Of a stretch of 15,846 nt of DNA, positions 2,136 to 10,757 are shown piece by piece. Origin of the DNA: Thermococci archaeon (GTDB taxonomy: Archaea > Hadarchaeota > B88-G9); contig QMUK01000023.1 of assembly GCA_003660555.1 (NCBI GenBank), forward strand, positions 1 to 15,846, read 5' to 3'. Made by a program: the position numbers and the translations under genes. The notes beneath the pieces were generated by a model, which was not told where the DNA came from, did no database searches, and saw only the letters and a list, made by a program, of their open reading frames with translations. Numbering within the stretch: the first letter of the stretch is position 1; the number at the start of each line of letters is the position of its first letter.

Positions 2136-3962
2136 ATGCGCTTAGGGAAATACCCTTTGGCACTCTCGATACTAGTCATACTCGTATTAGTGATATTCGT
2201 TGTAACTTTACCTGAAAAAGAGATAGAGACTCCAGACATATCTGAAGACTTCAAATCGTACTATTTGGGAAAAACTGAGAAGGAAGTCCTCAGGGATGCT
2301 CTGAGGTCAATTAAAATGGATCTAAACGATTTATGGCTTAAATCAGACGTTGTAGAGGATGATTTCAGACTATCTGTTGTGGAGAGAGTAATGAACGACC
2401 CATACGAGGGGAATTTAAAGACTCTTCTGGAAATATCAAAGGAAATCTCATCCGAGGAAATGTGGAGAGTCCTGAAATCGATGGGAGAGAGGTTAGATAC
2501 CTCTCCAGAGAGATTCTCTGTTGAAGGTAAAGGAATACCAGCCTTAGTTTATTCCATGGCAGTCTCTGAAGAGTTAATATCAGAGGCCTTCTCGAACTTA
2601 ACCGAGGAGGAGCTAGCCATACTAGATAAGGGAATAGCGTTCCTCTTAGAGGGAGCAGAACCAGAGGTGGAGGAGGAAGAATTCCTGAGGATAGTCAGGA
2701 AAGTCGAGAGAGATAGGTTATATTCTGCAGGAGTAACAATTGTCTCGACAATGGAGGAGAACTTAGATGAAATAAGAGAAGAAGCGGACACAAAAGAGAA
2801 CAATAGGATATCTACACCCATAGGATACGTCGTCATAGGTACTAAAGGAGACGATGAGTATCTTCTTGGAGAAGGAGTGATCGGGGTTATAGATCCCGGA
2901 GGGAACGACCTTTACAAGTGGATGGAAAGCAGTGGGATAACCTTCGTGATAGACTTCTCTGGAAACGACACATACATTGGCGAAGACTTCTCCTTGGGAG
3001 GAGCCAGATTTGGAATAAGTATTTTATACGATTTGTCTGGAAACGACTACTACAAGGGAGAGAACTTCTCAATAGGATCTTCCTATTTCGGAGTTGGAGT
3101 TCTGAGAGACTTCTCTGGAAACGACTACTACGAGGGAGACACCTGTACACAAGGCGCAGGAGTCTTCGGACTTGGAGTGTTGAGAGATCACTCAGGTAAC
3201 GACACTTACAGAGCCGCCTTCGAGTCACAAGCGTTTGGATTCACTTGGGGCTTCGGAGTCCTTCACGATCTCTCCGGCAACGATCTCTACTATGCTGGCG
3301 GGAAGTACTTGGATTATCTGAGGTTCAAGGACAGATACCTCAGCCTATCTCAGGGATTTGGATTCGGGATGAGACCATATGCTTCTGGAGGAATAGGATT
3401 CCTGAGAGATGACTCAGGAAACGACGTTTACTTCTCAGACGTCTTCGGACAAGCTTCTAGCTACTGGTTCTCTCTGGGATACATACACGACCTCTCGGGC
3501 AATGACGTGTACCAGGGATGGCTTTACAATCAGGGAGCTGCAACACACCTCTGTGGATCTCTCCTACTCGAAGAGAAGGGAAACGACTCTTATTACGCTA
3601 AGGGAGTCTCGCAGGGATGTGGACACGACTTGGCCATAGGCATGCTAATAGATAGAGAAGGGAACGACTCCTATATAGCTGCAGACCTATCCCAGGGAGC
3701 GGGAAATGCAAACGGAATAGGAATACTCATAGACAACTCCGGAAATGACTCCTACACCGTGACCGAGGCCTTCGGAGTATACGACAATGCCCAAGGTTAC
3801 GGAAACTGGAGAAGGGATTTCGGAAGCATAGGGATACTGATAGATCTCTCTGGAGACGACAAGTACTCTGAACCAGGTAGAACGAACAATAGATTCTACA
3901 GAGGGACCAATTACGGCGTAGTTCTGGATGTAGAGACTAAGGAAGGAGGTGCTCGTGATTGA
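2136..3962 (+). CDS. Membrane-anchored GND-Y repeat protein, predicted beta-solenoid
   Basis: A 608-aa extracytoplasmic protein. Residues ~7-25 form one hydrophobic segment after a basic start (RLGK). There is no obvious small-residue cleavage site, so it may stay as a signal anchor. Residues ~35-225 are acidic and helical. From residue ~238 to ~600 the chain is built of 13 copies of a motif h-x-D-x-S-G-N-D-x-Y, mostly spaced 26-27 residues (one gap of 37, one of 47), often followed by QG and a G-h-G-h-L strand. The dense Asp/Asn/Gly turns followed by aromatic residues suggest a beta-helix with turn-bound cations. They recall RTX calcium-binding repeats but with a different consensus and period. 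The ATG at 2136 has AGGAG at 2121-2125. The stop overlaps the TTG of the secreted HEAT protein, implying translational coupling and joint function on the cell surface. No catalytic motif is visible; an adhesin or scaffold role is inference. Confidence 0.85.
   Translation: MRLGKYPLALSILVILVLVIFVVTLPEKEIETPDISEDFKSYYLGKTEKEVLRDALRSIKMDLNDLWLKSDVVEDDFRLSVVERVMNDPYEGNLKTLLEISKEISSEEMWRVLKSMGERLDTSPERFSVEGKGIPALVYSMAVSEELISEAFSNLTEEELAILDKGIAFLLEGAEPEVEEEEFLRIVRKVERDRLYSAGVTIVSTMEENLDEIREEADTKENNRISTPIGYVVIGTKGDDEYLLGEGVIGVIDPGGNDLYKWMESSGITFVIDFSGNDTYIGEDFSLGGARFGISILYDLSGNDYYKGENFSIGSSYFGVGVLRDFSGNDYYEGDTCTQGAGVFGLGVLRDHSGNDTYRAAFESQAFGFTWGFGVLHDLSGNDLYYAGGKYLDYLRFKDRYLSLSQGFGFGMRPYASGGIGFLRDDSGNDVYFSDVFGQASSYWFSLGYIHDLSGNDVYQGWLYNQGAATHLCGSLLLEEKGNDSYYAKGVSQGCGHDLAIGMLIDREGNDSYIAADLSQGAGNANGIGILIDNSGNDSYTVTEAFGVYDNAQGYGNWRRDFGSIGILIDLSGDDKYSEPGRTNNRFYRGTNYGVVLDVETKEGGARD
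2847..3863 (+). repeat. Thirteen in-frame G-(N/D)-D-x-Y coding repeats
   Basis: The conserved Gly codons of the motif start at 2847, 2901, 2961, 3039, 3117, 3195, 3276, 3417, 3498, 3579, 3660, 3741 and 3852. Successive spacings are 18, 20, 26, 26, 26, 27, 47, 27, 27, 27, 27 and 37 codons. Most copies read SGND-x-Y; edge copies degrade to KGDD (first), PGGND (second) and SGDD (last), as expected for solenoid caps. DNA identity between neighbouring copies is moderate, with copies around 2951-2969 and 3107-3125 nearly identical at the core, so the array expanded by duplication and then diverged. Confidence 0.85.
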
Positions 3963-4984
3963 AGACCCATAAACTCTTCTTCTTATTGTCGTTGGTGATA
4001 ATAGTCTCTCCAGTTCTATCTCCCCCATTAGTCGAACCACAAGGAGAAGAGAAAAGAAGAAGAATGGATTCACTTCCTTTCTTAGAGTACAATGAGACCT
4101 TCGCGAAAGAAGTAGAGGATCTCTTTCTGAAGGTAGCTTCCTTTGACATAAGGGTCAGGGAGAAGTACGGTGAGGAATCTAAGAGGAAGCTGATCGAGAT
4201 GGGAGCAAGAGCTGTCCCACCTCTCTTGGATATGTATCTGGAGACAGACGTAGCTAGAAGGAGAGTCTCTCTCTTCCAGATAATTAAGGGAATAGGAGAG
4301 GAAGCTCTCCCCTATTTGTGGTACTACATGGATAATTCGGAGAATCCCAAAGCTGTTTCCAGGTTGGCCTACTTATTAGGGGAAATTCCGAGCAAGGAGT
4401 CTTTACCATATTTAGTGAGTAAGCTCAAGGAGAAGGAGAGATACAGGGAGGCCTTAGGCAGTATAGCCTATGCTCTTGGGAGAATAGGTGACAGGAGAGC
4501 AACTCCTTATCTAGTAGAACTGGCAAAGGACGAGGACGTATTCGTTAGGAAGAGCGCCGTAGTAGCTCTAGGGAGACTCAAGGATCCTGAGGGGATACCA
4601 GTACTAATACATTCTCTTGAAGACGATTACCACATAGTAAGATATCCAGCATCCATTTCTCTCAAGGAAATAGGCCCAGAAACAATAGACCCTCTTCTCG
4701 ATTACCTTGAGTCGGATGCCCCTTCAATTGCTAAAGGCTACGCCATAGAGGTACTAGGAAGTATAGGTGCTGTGGAGAAGGACAAGGTATCTAAGACCCT
4801 GCTCGAATTACTACACTCTGAAGATCCTTGGTTGAGAGCATTTTCTGCTGAGGCAATAGCTGATCTCTGTGTAATCAGTGCTAAGAAAAGGCTTGTCTCG
4901 ATAATGGAAAAGGAAAAGCATCCGTTTGCTAAACAACAGTTAGTGGAGGCATTAGAAAAACTAGAAAACTGTGAAAAACAGTGA
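3959..4984 (+). CDS. Secreted HEAT/PBS-lyase-like repeat protein
   Basis: A 341-aa protein with a classic signal peptide (KTHK then a hydrophobic core to about residue 20, then SPPL). After a linker come at least six ~30-residue helical repeats of HEAT type, with recurrent P-x-L, A-x-x-A-L-G-x-I/L and D-P/D-E turn residues between residues ~115 and 335. HEAT repeats form alpha-solenoids that bind proteins; here the solenoid is predicted outside the cytoplasm, which is unusual. The TTG start is supported by GGAGGTG at 3945-3951 seven bases upstream and by the signal peptide starting at that codon. It overlaps the stop of the beta-solenoid gene as TTGA (3959-3962). The pair is best read as a two-gene surface module; any binding between the two products is inference. 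Confidence 0.85.
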   Translation: MKTHKLFFLLSLVIIVSPVLSPPLVEPQGEEKRRRMDSLPFLEYNETFAKEVEDLFLKVASFDIRVREKYGEESKRKLIEMGARAVPPLLDMYLETDVARRRVSLFQIIKGIGEEALPYLWYYMDNSENPKAVSRLAYLLGEIPSKESLPYLVSKLKEKERYREALGSIAYALGRIGDRRATPYLVELAKDEDVFVRKSAVVALGRLKDPEGIPVLIHSLEDDYHIVRYPASISLKEIGPETIDPLLDYLESDAPSIAKGYAIEVLGSIGAVEKDKVSKTLLELLHSEDPWLRAFSAEAIADLCVISAKKRLVSIMEKEKHPFAKQQLVEALEKLENCEKQ

Positions 4985-5031
4985 ATGGTAAACAGAACAA
5001 TTTCCCGGCGAAGTCATTGAGGTCTGTAATA

Positions 5032-5045
5032 CCGAAATATTTATA
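5032..5045 (+). promoter_or_regulatory. BRE/TATA promoter for the Cys-rich secreted protein
   Basis: CCGAAA (5032-5037, BRE-like) is followed by TATTTATA (5038-5045). Transcription would be expected near 5068, giving a leader of about 25 bases that contains the ribosome binding site GGAGGTGGGG (5082-5091) just before ATG 5094. The element lies in the only intergenic space on this side (4985-5093), separating this gene from the upstream surface-protein operon. Confidence 0.65.
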
Positions 5046-5093
5046 GTATGATAAGAGCATAGTACTGCAGGAACCTCGGTTGGAGGTGGGGCA

Positions 5094-5756
5094 ATGTCTA
5101 GGGCTTTACCCAAAGCAATGGCTCTAGTTCTAGTGCTGTTGGTAGTCAACCCAGTATTTGGTGGAACCGAGAGAGAAGTACTCGAGGAAGAGTATCAGAA
5201 TTTGTTATATGAGAACAAAGTGTTAGCTAGGGAACTACTCTCCATATTGAGCGGATGTGAAATATGTATGGACCCAGAGGAGATGGAGTATAGCATAGTC
5301 CCTACCGTGGTTTCCCTAGCAATGAAGACCAAGGAATGTTGCATAGATCCAGAAACTGGTGAAGGAGTAGTTAGATTCAAGCTAAAGAAGGTCGTGTGTG
5401 AATACGAGGCTCCAGAGATGGCTCTTAGAATAGAGGATCCAACTAAGTTGAGTGATGAAGACTTGGCGAAGCAAATAACTCTATTGATGAAAGAAAGAGA
5501 ACTGCTAAGGAGAGCAATAGCAAGAGCCAATATGGGAGCTAACAGAGGAGTCCAGTATGGATACGTAAGATATAAGAGATATAGCCACGCTTGGTCCATT
5601 TGCTGTGAAGAGGGAGCAATACCGGTCTTTGGGAACATAGAGATATCTGGAGATTTCCCGGTATGTCCATCTAGGTTCTGTAGACCATACTATTCAATAT
5701 CCGTGTGGATGAAGCGCCCCAACCCAGAAAAGATATTCTGTGGAAGAGATCCGTAG
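5094..5756 (+). CDS. Secreted cysteine-rich protein of unknown function
   Basis: A 220-aa protein with a clear signal peptide (SRALPK, hydrophobic core, cleavage likely after VFG near residue 23). The mature part starts with a charged, probably coiled-coil helix, then a pattern of ten cysteines (C-x-x-C, CC, one single, CC, then three singles near the C-terminus). An even number of Cys in an exported thermophile protein suggests up to five disulfides. A VVCEYEAPE segment resembles the C-x-Y-E-P segments in the partial gene at the left edge, so a shared small domain is possible. A basic, Tyr-rich region (VQYGYVRYKRYSHAW) precedes the last Cys cluster. I do not recognise the family. It has its own promoter, a strong ribosome binding site, and a T-rich terminator just after it, so it is probably monocistronic. 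Confidence 0.8.
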   Translation: MSRALPKAMALVLVLLVVNPVFGGTEREVLEEEYQNLLYENKVLARELLSILSGCEICMDPEEMEYSIVPTVVSLAMKTKECCIDPETGEGVVRFKLKKVVCEYEAPEMALRIEDPTKLSDEDLAKQITLLMKERELLRRAIARANMGANRGVQYGYVRYKRYSHAWSICCEEGAIPVFGNIEISGDFPVCPSRFCRPYYSISVWMKRPNPEKIFCGRDP

Positions 5757-5779
5757 TCTGACTTTTCTCTCCAACCATA

Positions 5780-5792
5780 TTTTTTACTTTTA
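5780..5792 (+). terminator. T-rich archaeal terminator
   Basis: A run of six T (5780-5785) followed by a second four-T run (5788-5791) lies 25-35 bases after the stop of the Cys-rich gene and immediately before the convergent small gene's stop. No hairpin is evident, which fits oligo-T-dependent archaeal termination on the + strand. The opposite strand shows only A runs here, so it would not stop the convergent transcript. Confidence 0.5.
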
Positions 5793-5793
5793 G

Positions 5794-6045
5794 TTAATGT
5801 ATGTAATTCTCACCTCTTTCTACATCAGATAACACGTATCCCGCTTCCCTTAGCCTTCCCTCCAAGTCTCTGGCCATCTCGAAGAAACCTATTATGGAGG
5901 AGAGAGCTAAGAAAGGAATCCTTATTCTCTCACCTCCCTGAATTAGTAGGACCAATAACTCGTTTTCCCCCTCTTTCTTGACCGACACCTCTATTCTCCC
6001 GAATGACGTCTCTATACTGCCCAATTTTATCTCCATGTGCTTCAC
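5794..6045 (-). CDS. Small protein of unknown function overlapping the EF-2 gene
   Basis: An 83-aa protein with beta-rich N-terminal half (EIKLG, RIEVSVKKE, LLVLLIQGG, RIRIPF) and a helical C-terminal half. It has no Cys and no known motif, and I do not recognise it. The GTG at 6045 overlaps the EF-2 stop as GTGA, with GAGGAG about 11 bases upstream. An alternative ATG at 6036 lies 5 bases after AGGTGA, and either start gives nearly the same protein. The tight coupling means it is co-transcribed with the abundant translation factor. The strand-dimer-like pattern would fit a small nucleic-acid or protein-binding adaptor, but that is a guess. Confidence 0.65.
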   Translation of the reverse strand: MKHMEIKLGSIETSFGRIEVSVKKEGENELLVLLIQGGERIRIPFLALSSIIGFFEMARDLEGRLREAGYVLSDVERGENYIH

Positions 6046-8231
6046 CTAGACATGTACTCCTCCGGAGATGGAGGCTCTGGCTTCAGCCCTTTTCTCTCCC
6101 TCACTCTCCTGACTATCTCCGGCTCAAGCTCTCTTGGGACTAACTCGAACTTCTCGAATTGCGTACCCCATATCGCTCTACCTTCTGTCTCGGATCTGAG
6201 CTCGGCAGCTAGCCCGAAGGACTCTGCTACCGGTATTAAAGCTTTAACTACCATGACGTCCTCCTCGTGTTCCATTGTCAGTAATTGTCCTCTCCTAGTC
6301 TGTATTACCTTGGTGACTCCACCTAGGAATTCTTCTGGAACTCTGACTTCTAATCTCAGAATCGGCTCCATTAATCTAGGATTGGCTGAGAGTATTCCTG
6401 CGTATATTGGTCTTCTCACTGCAGGGTATATCTGAGCAGGCCCTCTGTGGACAGCGTCCTCGTGTAATACTGCATCTACTAATATGACCTTAACACCTCT
6501 CACAGGCTCTCTTGCAATTGGTCCCTCGTTCATGGCTTGTTTGAAAGCTTCTATTATTAGTTCTTTGGTTTCTCTCATGTACTGTACACCTTTCGTGGCA
6601 TCCACTAAGACGTTGACTCCCTCTATCCACATGACCCCCTTAGCGTGATCTGTTGGCCATCCTAGTTCCCTCAATATTTTCGCCCTCTCTTTCCTGTCCT
6701 GAGTACTGGTTACTCTCTTCTCCTCTATGGCTCTCTGTACCTCTTCTTCCAATGGCTCTACCACTATGTAAAACTTGTTGTGCTTGTTCGGAGATTTACC
6801 CTCTATCGGGCCAGCGTTTCCAGTTATGGTTTCTCTGTAGACCACTAAAGGCTCGGAGGTCCTTACCTTGAGTCCAGCCTCCTTGAGTTTATATTCAGTT
6901 ATCTCTAGGTGTAATTCACCCATCCCTGATACCAAGTACTCTCCAGTTTCCTGATTTATCTTCACTTGGATGTTCGGATCCTCTATACTTATTTTGTTAA
7001 GAGTATCTATTAACTTGGGCAAGTCTGAGACGTCCTCTGGTTCTATTGCCACAGTTACTACCGGCTCGCTCAAATAAGTTATCTCTTCGAACGGAGGTAT
7101 GTCTAGGCCTTTGTCTGTTATTGTTTCACCAACTCTAGCTTCTTTGGATCCTATTATTGCAGCTATGTTCCCGGCAGGGACTTTTTCTACTTGAACCCTC
7201 TCAGGACCTATGTAAATGGCTACCTGCTGCACCTTGTAGTCTTTTTTTGCATTGACTAGATGTATTTCCCTACCCCTTTCCAGAACACCCGAGAATATCC
7301 TGCCGGTGGAAACCACTCCAGCGTGTTCATCTACTAATACATCGGTTATGACCATGACTACTTTTCCCTCTGGATTACACTCTAGCATGTCCTTCCCAAC
7401 TCCGTCGTTTATGTTTCCAGGCCAGAGAATCGGTACTCTGACCTTCTGAGCCACTTTCGGATTGGGCAAGTGTCTTATCACCATGTCCAGAATTACCTCA
7501 TAGAGAGGGCTTTTTTCGGATAGCACCTTCCAGTTGTCTTCCTTATAGGCCTCTATTATGTCTTTGAACGTTATTCCTTTCTTTTTCATTTGAGGAATCG
7601 AGAGAGCCCACTTGTGTAGAGCAGAACCGAACGCAACACTTCCGTCTTCAACTCTGACTTGCCACTCTTTCTTGAATTCCTCTGGAGCGTATTTCTTTAT
7701 CAACTGATTGAACTTAGTTATTATTTGGAAGAACCTATGTTGCATCTCCTCTGGGCTTATTCTAAGCTCCTGAATTAATCTATCAACCTTATTTATGAAC
7801 AAAATTGGCTTAGTCCTTTCCTTAAGCGCCATCCTCAAATTAGTCTCCGTCTGGACCATTACTCCTTCTACGGCATCCACCACCATTACCACACCATCTA
7901 TGGCCCTCAGAGCCCTAGTCACGTCGCCACTGAAGTCCACGTGCCCTGGGGTGTCTATCAGGTTAATGAGATATTCCTCTCCCTCGTAGTCGTGAACTAG
8001 GGATACAGCGACGGCGTTAATTGTTATTCCCCTCTGCTGCTCTAGTTCCCAGTAATCAGTGAACAGTTGCTCCCCTGCCAACTCCATAGATATTATCCCT
8101 GCAGCAGCTACTAAACTGTCTGTGAGAGTAGTCTTTCCGTGGTCGACATGGGCAACTATTCCTATGTTTCTTATCCTCTCAGGCTTCCACATGAGTTCTT
8201 GGATCTCCTTGACTTTCTTCACCCTAGCCAT
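6042..8231 (-). CDS. fusA: Archaeal translation elongation factor 2 (aEF-2)
   Basis: Ribosomal translocase GTPase. The 729 aa match full-length archaeal EF-2. G1 AHVDHGKTT is at 27-35, switch I contains QQRGITI, G3 is DTPGH and G4 is NKVD, all intact. Domain II (VDEHAGVVSTGRI) and the domain III/V elements (SGMGELHLE; RRPIYAG) are present. The domain IV loop reads LHEDAVHRG, with His595 at the diphthamide position and the preceding His590 also conserved, so the product should be a substrate for the Dph enzymes. Start ATG 8231 is preceded on its strand by GAGGTG (8237-8242), spacing 5, and a TATA box. The unrelated small gene follows with a 4-bp overlap. There is no sign of a second EF-2 paralogue in this window. 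Confidence 0.97.
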   Translation of the reverse strand: MARVKKVKEIQELMWKPERIRNIGIVAHVDHGKTTLTDSLVAAAGIISMELAGEQLFTDYWELEQQRGITINAVAVSLVHDYEGEEYLINLIDTPGHVDFSGDVTRALRAIDGVVMVVDAVEGVMVQTETNLRMALKERTKPILFINKVDRLIQELRISPEEMQHRFFQIITKFNQLIKKYAPEEFKKEWQVRVEDGSVAFGSALHKWALSIPQMKKKGITFKDIIEAYKEDNWKVLSEKSPLYEVILDMVIRHLPNPKVAQKVRVPILWPGNINDGVGKDMLECNPEGKVVMVITDVLVDEHAGVVSTGRIFSGVLERGREIHLVNAKKDYKVQQVAIYIGPERVQVEKVPAGNIAAIIGSKEARVGETITDKGLDIPPFEEITYLSEPVVTVAIEPEDVSDLPKLIDTLNKISIEDPNIQVKINQETGEYLVSGMGELHLEITEYKLKEAGLKVRTSEPLVVYRETITGNAGPIEGKSPNKHNKFYIVVEPLEEEVQRAIEEKRVTSTQDRKERAKILRELGWPTDHAKGVMWIEGVNVLVDATKGVQYMRETKELIIEAFKQAMNEGPIAREPVRGVKVILVDAVLHEDAVHRGPAQIYPAVRRPIYAGILSANPRLMEPILRLEVRVPEEFLGGVTKVIQTRRGQLLTMEHEEDVMVVKALIPVAESFGLAAELRSETEGRAIWGTQFEKFELVPRELEPEIVRRVRERKGLKPEPPSPEEYMSR

Positions 8232-8689: not shown

Positions 8690-10300
8690 ATGCGGTTGGG
8701 AGTAGGAGAAGTGAAGAAGAAGCCTTTGGAGGTACTAGAGAGGAAGCTAAGTGTGGTTCAACCCACTAATCTCGATACGTCTTTACCGAGAAGGACCCTG
8801 TCTCTATGTCCTGAGTGTAGAAGGCTAATTCCAGCCGAAATATACCAAGAAGATGAGAAAGTATTCATATCTAAGAGGTGCCCAGATCACGGAGAATTTA
8901 GGGATTTGTACTACGGCGATTTAGAGACTTTCGAGAGATTCCACGAATTCGCTTTGGATGGTGTTGGAGTAGAGAATCCACACACCACCATAAGGAACTC
9001 ATGCCCATACGACTGCGGCCTCTGTGAGCAACACTATAGCCATCCTGGAATAGTCAACATAGACATAACCAATAGATGTAACCTCAGGTGTCCCATATGT
9101 TTCGCTAACGCCAATGCATTGGGATACGTCTTCGAGCTAGACTATGAACACGTAGCTGCCATGTTAGAATTGCTAAAGGAATTAAGACCAGTCTCTCCTC
9201 CAGCGATACAGTTCTCAGGAGGAGAACCGACCATACACAGAGATTTCCTTAAGATGATAAGGAAAGCTAGGGAATTAGGTTTTCCACAGATACAAGTAGC
9301 TACCAATGGAGTTAAGTTGGCCGATTTCCAGTTCACTCAGGCTTTAGTCGATGCTGGATTACACACAGTTTATTTGCAATTCGATGGATTTAAGGAAGAA
9401 GTATATGAGACTGCCAGAGGTATGAGGAATCTCCTAGAGGTCAAGATGAGGGTTATAGAGAACTGCAGGAGAGTAAAGCCCGAGCCCCTATCGACAGTGC
9501 TAGTGCCCACTGTACTAAAGGGAGTAAATGATGACGAAGTTGGAGAAATAGTGAACTTCGGATTAGAAAACCTAGATGTAATAAGAGCAGTTAATTTTCA
9601 ACCAGTCTCTCTTTCAGGAAGAATAGGCTACGATGAGAGAATGAAATTCAGATACACGATAGGGGATCTGATAAGAGACCTAGTCGATCAAACTGACTAC
9701 CTAGAGAAAGAAGACTTCTATCCAGTCCCAGTGGCAGCAGCTATATCCGAGCTAGTATCCGCAGTCCATGGAGAGGAGAAAGTAGCCTTCACATGTCATC
9801 CAGCTTGCGGAGCAGCGACGTATCTCTTCAAGACCGATGATGGAAGAGTGACACCAATAACTAGGTTCGTAGACGTGGAAGGCTTGTACGAAAAGAGCCT
9901 GGAGATATCTCAAAACATAAAGGGAAAGAGATTTGGAAGAATAAGAGCTCTAGTGAAGAGTTTCGATATCCTCCGATACATAGATCAGGATAAAGCCCCG
10001 AAAGGGCTTAATCTAAGGGGAATATTGAAAGCAATACTGTTAAAGGCCACTAAGAGAAGCCTAGCGGATTTCCACTGGAAGACACTTTTCATAGGGACTA
10101 TGCACTTCATGGACCTATATAACTACGATGTGGAGAGAGTTAAGAGGTGTGTAGTCCACTATGTGACCCCAGATGGAAGACTGATACCCTTCTGTGCATA
10201 TAACACCGGTCCCACTTACAGAGAGGAGGTGGAGAGGAAATTCTCCATACCTCTGGAGGAATGGAAGAATGTCGCTGAGAGAGAAAATGCTGGAGACTGA
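8690..10300 (+). CDS. tes: Radical SAM protein, probable tetraether lipid synthase (Tes-like)
   Basis: Predicted to join the tails of archaeal lipids by radical C-C bond formation to make GDGT-type tetraethers. The 536 aa show the Tes/MJ0619 layout. An N-terminal rubredoxin-like knuckle has CPEC (C40, C43) with RCPDHG (C64). An auxiliary cluster has CPYDCGLC (C105, C109, C112). The radical-SAM cluster is CNLRCPIC (C130, C134, C137), followed by SGGEP (176-180). Later Cys are in CHPAC (C369, C373), RCVVHY (C487) and PFCAYN (C502). Three extra Cys groups besides the SAM motif agree with the multi-metal Tes structure. Paralogues of this family with other substrates exist, so lipid coupling is probable rather than certain. 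The start could be GTG 8711, but ATG 8690 fits the TATA distance. A cytoplasmic HEAT protein overlaps its 3' end. Confidence 0.8.
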   Translation: MRLGVGEVKKKPLEVLERKLSVVQPTNLDTSLPRRTLSLCPECRRLIPAEIYQEDEKVFISKRCPDHGEFRDLYYGDLETFERFHEFALDGVGVENPHTTIRNSCPYDCGLCEQHYSHPGIVNIDITNRCNLRCPICFANANALGYVFELDYEHVAAMLELLKELRPVSPPAIQFSGGEPTIHRDFLKMIRKARELGFPQIQVATNGVKLADFQFTQALVDAGLHTVYLQFDGFKEEVYETARGMRNLLEVKMRVIENCRRVKPEPLSTVLVPTVLKGVNDDEVGEIVNFGLENLDVIRAVNFQPVSLSGRIGYDERMKFRYTIGDLIRDLVDQTDYLEKEDFYPVPVAAAISELVSAVHGEEKVAFTCHPACGAATYLFKTDDGRVTPITRFVDVEGLYEKSLEISQNIKGKRFGRIRALVKSFDILRYIDQDKAPKGLNLRGILKAILLKATKRSLADFHWKTLFIGTMHFMDLYNYDVERVKRCVVHYVTPDGRLIPFCAYNTGPTYREEVERKFSIPLEEWKNVAERENAGD

Positions 10301-10757
10301 GAACTTGGATGTAGAGGGAATAATATCTCAAGTAGAGAAAGATGGTATGGAAGATCTAATAAATTTGGGCAGAGATAAAGACTTCAGAATTAGATGGAAT
10401 TGTGCTAGGATAATTTCCTACATCTTGGAAAGAGACCCAGAGAAAATAAAAGAATTGAAAAACCTATTAATGGAAATGCTCTCGGATCATCACAGACTAG
10501 TGAGAAACTGGGCCTCCATTTCAGTTTTGAAGGTAGCTAGAAAGAGACCAGAGTTGCTCGGGGAAATCGCTGAGGCCTATTTGGAGAGATTCATAGGTGG
10601 AGACGACTACGAGAAGTTCGACTCTCTCAAACTACTGGAGTATATCAAGAGAAATAACCCCAAGGTTTTCGAGAAATTCAAAGACAGAATAGTGGAATTA
10701 TCCAAGGACGATAATCCAGTGGTGAGATATCAAGCGAAAAGGGTCTTGGAGGAGTAA
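10269..10757 (+). CDS. Cytoplasmic HEAT-like helical repeat protein
   Basis: A 162-aa all-helical protein with four to five HEAT-like repeats: DFRIRWNCARIISYIL, HHRLVRNWASISVLKVA, YEKFDSLKLLEYI and NPVVRYQAKRVLEE mark successive second helices with the usual V-R-x-x-A-x-x-x-L spacing. No signal peptide is present, in contrast to the secreted HEAT protein at 3959. ATG 10269 is chosen because GGAGGA (10256-10261) lies 7 bases upstream. It overlaps the Tes-like gene by 32 bases, so translation is probably coupled. ATG 10287 is an alternative. It likely acts as a protein-binding adaptor; a link to the upstream enzyme is inferred from context only. Confidence 0.8.
   Translation: MSLREKMLETENLDVEGIISQVEKDGMEDLINLGRDKDFRIRWNCARIISYILERDPEKIKELKNLLMEMLSDHHRLVRNWASISVLKVARKRPELLGEIAEAYLERFIGGDDYEKFDSLKLLEYIKRNNPKVFEKFKDRIVELSKDDNPVVRYQAKRVLEE

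Follow-up and report, generated by a model that had tools for sequence, protein, structure and literature searches.

A beta-solenoid protein (P0001) and a HEAT-repeat protein (P0002) encoded side by side in archaeal DNA form a two-part unit, predicted to be exported, whose conservation is strongly supported. Because many bacterial phyla have the two parts either adjacent or fused, it is almost certain that they function together. With moderate confidence, we propose that the pair works as one extracytoplasmic unit, in which a Ca2+-binding beta-helix would carry a ligand-binding strip and the HEAT protein would serve as an adaptor, and that the archaeon acquired this unit from bacteria.

The archaeal gene pair

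The window (the whole stretch of DNA that was analyzed, 15,846 bases long) is an entire contig of a 1.3 Mb archaeal genome assembled into 150 contigs; the features of the gene pair are collected in Table 1. A preliminary description of this DNA had recognized an exported repeat protein joined by a TTGA overlap to a HEAT protein, and the two open reading frames, at 2136-3962 and 3959-4984, bear this out. Because a second TTGA overlap is found at 1859-1862, between two genes upstream of P0001, the overlap between P0001 and P0002 is not by itself distinctive in the source genome. (The stretch 711-2113 holds a metallo-beta-lactamase/ligase-associated exonuclease-like gene, with a TIGR04122 match below cut-off, and, joined to it by a TTGA overlap, a gene of 84 aa that immediately precedes P0001. 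Downstream of the pair, 5094-5756 encodes an exported 220-aa protein with several cysteines and without a family match, and a TATA-like sequence at about 5037-5045 precedes this gene.)

Table 1. Coordinates in the window of the features of the P0001/P0002 gene pair
Feature	Position	Strand	Basis
P0001, GND beta-solenoid protein (predicted exported), subfamily A, 608 aa, ATG start	2136..3962	+	sequence, tree
P0001 N-terminal hydrophobic helix, residues 1-24, signal or membrane anchor, cleavage site not obvious	2136..2207	+	sequence; AlphaFold2 helix 7-24
P0001 N-terminal all-helical domain, residues 46-219, common to bacterial relatives	2271..2792	+	alignment of relatives, AlphaFold2
P0001 beta-solenoid domain, residues 222-598, 13 coils, most of them 26-27 residues long, turns D-x-x-G-[ND]-D-x-Y	2799..3929	+	motif count, AlphaFold2, alignment
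Conserved strip Q406, R413-P414, Y443-W444, H471, H497-D498, N526, on five successive coils	3351..3713	+	alignment
GGAGGTG ribosome-binding-like site for the HEAT gene, 7-nt spacer to the P0002 start	3945..3951	+	sequence
TTGA stop/start overlap of P0001 and P0002, 4 bp	3959..3962	+	sequence; equal 4-bp overlap in at least six Zixibacteria pairs
P0002, HEAT-repeat partner (predicted exported), 341 aa, TTG start	3959..4984	+	sequence, Pfam, HEAT profile
P0002 signal peptide (MKTHKLFFLLSLVIIVSPVLS)	3959..4021	+	sequence; equivalent N-termini on nearly all bacterial partner genes
P0002 HEAT domain with family-specific N-cap (LFxxA...AR), residues 49-340	4103..4978	+	profile, alignment

Between residues 238 and 577, P0001 contains 13 G[ND]D-x-Y units (11 GND and 2 GDD), compared with a mean of 0.056 and a maximum of 2 such motifs in 5000 shuffled versions of the protein. 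The 13 SGND-x-Y repeats that had been described are thus present as G[ND]DxY, but only 8 of them are strictly SGND. The repetition exists at the protein level only, and no tandem repeat was detected at the DNA level. Twelve of the turns fit [DE]-x-x-G-[ND]-D-x-Y, i.e. they carry two acidic residues each, and the acidic turn residues are near invariant among 86 relatives. Searches of Pfam and NCBIfam gave no match to P0001 above cut-off, searches of PDB sequences gave no credible match, and a 29-row profile of the solenoid family matched nothing in the PDB; consistent with the preliminary description, these searches put no name on the solenoid. (A Pfam match to TerL_nuclease, with E 0.029, was dismissed as below cut-off, as were other weak Pfam matches.) Our searches of the literature outside subscription journals gave no description of the solenoid family or of the pair.

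By sequence, P0002 is clearly a member of the PBS-lyase-like HEAT repeat family (PF13646/PF03130), with an E-value of 1.1e-31 and a score of 109.3 bits against HEAT_2, for which the curated cut-off is 27.7. It differs from PBS-lyase-like HEAT proteins in its predicted export, in its family-specific N-cap, and in its pairing with one partner family. Note that the HEAT profile we grew from P0002 was trained on its own set of loci and is more permissive than Pfam, as illustrated by locus L022, where it gave an E-value of 1.6e-54 and Pfam HEAT gave none at 0.01. In the loci scanned, the sole extra match of this profile beyond the partners was a weak one to 10194-10757 of the window, a second, short HEAT-like open reading frame whose signal peptide is not obvious.

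Coupling to HEAT proteins and origin of the archaeal pair

The solenoid family is near-core in two bacterial groups, being found in 124 of the 132 Zixibacteria and 87 of the 98 Cloacimonadota genomes searched, and in the phylum containing Ignavibacteria it occurs in 13 of 148 genomes. One scan of genome contigs yielded 50 loci, mostly bacterial, from Ignavibacteria, Zixibacteria, Cloacimonadota, WOR-3, Planctomycetes, Latescibacteria and others. Among 394 archaeal genomes searched, the family was found in two, the source genome and G381. The source genome has a second copy (L002, 850-2892 of G000:C20) that is 40% identical to P0001 over the repeats; it stands as a single gene, encodes a signal peptide and lacks a HEAT neighbor. 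(The repeat domain of this paralog has a 100% identical copy in another metagenome-assembled genome, G394 (L010, ex4484_205), in which window DNA 3000-7400 had no match, the contig being missing or absent. Scans with the paralog as query, by tblastn against plasmids and against viral contigs, gave zero matches.)

A tree of the solenoids, in which several deep forks are weakly supported, sets a HEAT-coupled subfamily A, containing P0001, apart from a subfamily B, containing the paralog. After near-duplicates were removed, subfamily A comprised 54 members with a C-terminal HEAT fusion, 32 with HEAT in the next gene, and 8 without HEAT, three of which (L080, L090 and L124) were left out because their downstream sequence was too short. 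HEAT was therefore found in 86 of 91 evaluable members, a figure that applies to the sampled loci, the sampling of which favors top-scoring matches. For subfamily B the corresponding count was 0 of 21. (An "adjacent" call for L125 in subfamily B was not counted because the HEAT frame does not adjoin the gene on the downstream side, the reported gap being -3559.) The pairing of two unlike solenoids that had been proposed from the window is thus conserved, and its recurrence as a fusion or as the next gene makes a strong Rosetta-stone case.

The HEAT part consistently follows the solenoid. Fusion into one chain was found in Cloacimonadota and Ignavibacteria, and Pfam HEAT_2 scores above cut-off in fused members L024, L027, L040, L046 and L048 and just below it in L026. 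Almost every bacterial partner gene encodes an N-terminal signal peptide, and the gap of -4 seen in the window recurs in Zixibacteria (L092, L094, L109, L110, L111 and L112). Membership of the HEAT-coupled class was assigned when the solenoid scored better against A than against B and HEAT was fused or next downstream; the window pair, with its gap of -4 and its place in the HEAT-coupled group of the tree, falls in this class, profile A having been built from a set that includes the window sequence. Five subfamily-A-like members lack HEAT (L023, L030, L039, L041 and L043); PDZ-like domains stand in its place in L023, L030 and L043, an exo/endonuclease/phosphatase domain in L041, and, in a further relative of the solenoid, L049, a beta-propeller. 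Seven further members, three of them fused, could be assigned to neither subfamily, and at Zixibacteria locus L099 a distance of 1.2 kb separates the solenoid gene from the HEAT frame downstream of it. Sequence identities of solenoids and HEAT proteins correlate with r = 0.91 over 84 pairs, which partly reflects shared species history. No third conserved partner gene was found; the surroundings are otherwise not conserved, with unrelated genes on the flanks (TatC, phosphoesterase, histidine kinase, thiamin pyrophosphokinase and others).

The preliminary description had looked to related archaea for conserved adjacency. The pair was absent from the other archaea searched, and it is in bacteria that the adjacency is conserved; the distant archaeal relatives of the solenoid, in G381 and at Thermoplasmatota loci L055, L056 and L059, had no HEAT partner that we could find. 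(Loci L006, L055 and L056, from G381 and Thermoplasmatota, make up a short, HEAT-less archaeal branch of about 450 aa and adjoin a common conserved gene that is adenylosuccinate lyase-like by sequence.) Identity to Zixibacteria solenoids reaches 55% for P0001, and the proteins nearest to P0002 are likewise Zixibacteria partner HEAT proteins (up to 37% identity). Moreover, P0002 scores 111.5 bits against the partner of L035 (Zixibacteria), compared with a highest score of 54 bits among 149 other archaeal genomes, and in the listed genomes of its own phylum it had no match at E 1e-6 besides itself. Most likely, then, the pair passed from bacteria to the archaeon as one unit. Zixibacteria were considered as the donor and rejected because P0001 lies outside the Zixibacteria clade in the tree, despite the identity of up to 55%.

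Predicted fold and conserved strip

AlphaFold2 predicts, with a pLDDT of 90.1 and a pTM of 0.89, that P0001 consists of N-terminal helices followed by a regular beta-solenoid. In structural alignments of this model with VIA-align, MpAFP (3p4g) ranked far ahead of the rest (Z 20.6, 2.9 Å, 265 residues), and adhesin 5nxk and S-layer protein RsaA also aligned. The model can thus be placed among MpAFP-like parallel beta-helices, though Foldseek returned nothing from the PDB at E < 0.001, every match having E > 0.4, so that the likeness to MpAFP depends on the second aligner. For the natural fusion L027, a structure model (pLDDT 86.8) has a disordered linker at residues 619-638 and a pTM of 0.76, and thus no fixed interface is seen; a Foldseek search of the fusion model against viral models gave nothing at E < 0.001.

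In MpAFP, thirteen xGTGNDxuxuGGxuxGxux repeats make up region IV, which is a beta-helix with bound Ca2+ (PMC3492233). P0001 resembles this region in its thirteen tandem GND-containing repeats, its predicted parallel beta-helix and its predicted export, but the two are only 17% identical, the coils of P0001 are 26-27 residues long rather than 19-21, and P0001 has no evident ice-binding Thr/Asx array. In addition, MpAFP is a type I secretion RTX adhesin, whereas P0001 has an N-terminal signal or anchor. To our knowledge, MpAFP has no HEAT partner. RTX or hemolysin-type repeats (PF00353) are characterized by a GGxGxDxUx nonapeptide and by type I secretion without an N-terminal signal. P0001 shares with them Asp-bearing glycine-rich turns in an exported beta-solenoid, but it gave no PF00353 match at E up to 1, its repeat is mostly 26-27 residues long, and by inspection both P0001 and its relatives carry an N-terminal hydrophobic signal or anchor. 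Because each turn has two acidic residues that are near invariant in relatives, our best inference is that the turns would hold a ladder of Ca2+, and the alignment to 3p4g points in the same direction.

Superimposed on the repeats is a set of residues that are conserved at particular coils. R413, Y443, W444, H471 and D498 are 99-100% conserved in subfamily A and 90-95% conserved in subfamily B; P414, G490, Q493, N526 and R560 are conserved specifically in A. Placed by the repeat register in the sequence, the strip residues fall at about one coil position on successive coils. This pattern suggests that R413/Y443-W444/H471/D498 may form a binding or catalytic strip rather than part of a plain scaffold. 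Subfamily B retains the strip without a HEAT partner, which argues that the core function of the solenoid is independent of HEAT. The alignments also suggest that the strip may be common to the family and the HEAT protein an addition specific to subfamily A.

Proposed working and alternative explanations

We propose that P0001 is most likely a parallel beta-helix anchored in the membrane and that its stacked D-x-x-G-[ND]-D-x-Y turns would hold a row of Ca2+; with Ca2+ in its turns, P0001 would fold only once exported. The five-coil row R413, Y443-W444, H471, H497-D498 and N526 would most likely bind an extended ligand, for example an envelope or environmental glycan, and would perhaps act on it. 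P0002 would be a dedicated exported HEAT adaptor, presumably in direct contact with the solenoid, that recruits or positions another protein relative to it. In bacteria, this adaptor would be supplied in the same chain via a flexible linker or by the next, translationally coupled gene.

The preliminary description had instead seen a surface scaffold, adhesin or sheath, in which the beta-helix is a rigid spacer and the HEAT protein a second building block. The solenoids are predicted to be exported and align structurally to adhesin 5nxk, RsaA and MpAFP, as such a structure would have it. However, a pure spacer should keep its repeat residues only, and in both subfamilies R413, YW443-444, H471 and D498 are each fixed at one particular coil; furthermore, most genomes with the family have a single copy or a few copies that are similar in length, and no variable repeat array. 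We regard a scaffold, adhesin or sheath as a possible but unlikely role of the pair; the strip, as judged from sequence, favors ligand binding or catalysis. The same fixed R/YW/H/D row would suit a polysaccharide lyase-like or other enzyme, with the HEAT protein retained for expression as an unrelated accessory. PL6 alginate lyases and similar enzymes (7o84, 6qps), together with one polygalacturonase, align to the P0001 model with Z about 10-12, and the PL6-like enzymes share with P0001 a parallel beta-helix with conserved polar and aromatic residues along the solenoid. However, Z-values of this size may reflect the parallel beta-helix arrangement alone, P0001 has no sequence match to such enzymes and leaves their catalytic residues unmatched, and zero carbohydrate genes were present among the ten neighbors scanned, so that we consider a lyase-like enzyme quite unlikely.

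Close pairing, translational coupling and a HEAT part that always comes after the solenoid would also be expected if the HEAT protein were a dedicated chaperone or assembly factor that folds or anchors the solenoid and stays outside the final device. We think this decidedly unlikely: the one-chain fusions of Cloacimonadota and Ignavibacteria retain HEAT in the mature protein, and the solenoids of subfamily B occur without HEAT. That the adjacency is incidental packing of operons in a small genome, for which the other TTGA overlap at 1859 might speak, is contradicted by the 54 fusions and 32 adjacent pairs in many phyla together with their absence from subfamily B, and its probability is close to negligible.

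Returning to the ligand-binding beta-helix with a HEAT adaptor, we put forward, tentatively and as somewhat less probable than not, a broader claim: that a so far undescribed, near-core device of several bacterial phyla, made of a Ca2+-laddered beta-helix, a near-invariant R/YW/H/D ligand or catalytic strip and a dedicated exported HEAT adaptor, has passed to an archaeon. If this is true, the device would represent an envelope receptor or enzyme of a new class. Zixibacteria and Cloacimonadota have in this family a near-core protein with a putative functional row, for which sequence searches of Pfam, NCBIfam and the PDB gave no match in the members tested. Occurring both as split genes and as fusions, the family supplies a testable partner, a testable strip (R413, Y443, W444, H471 and D498) and, in subfamily B, a natural control. 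The pair thus offers a concrete way into the function of an envelope protein from mostly uncultured phyla.
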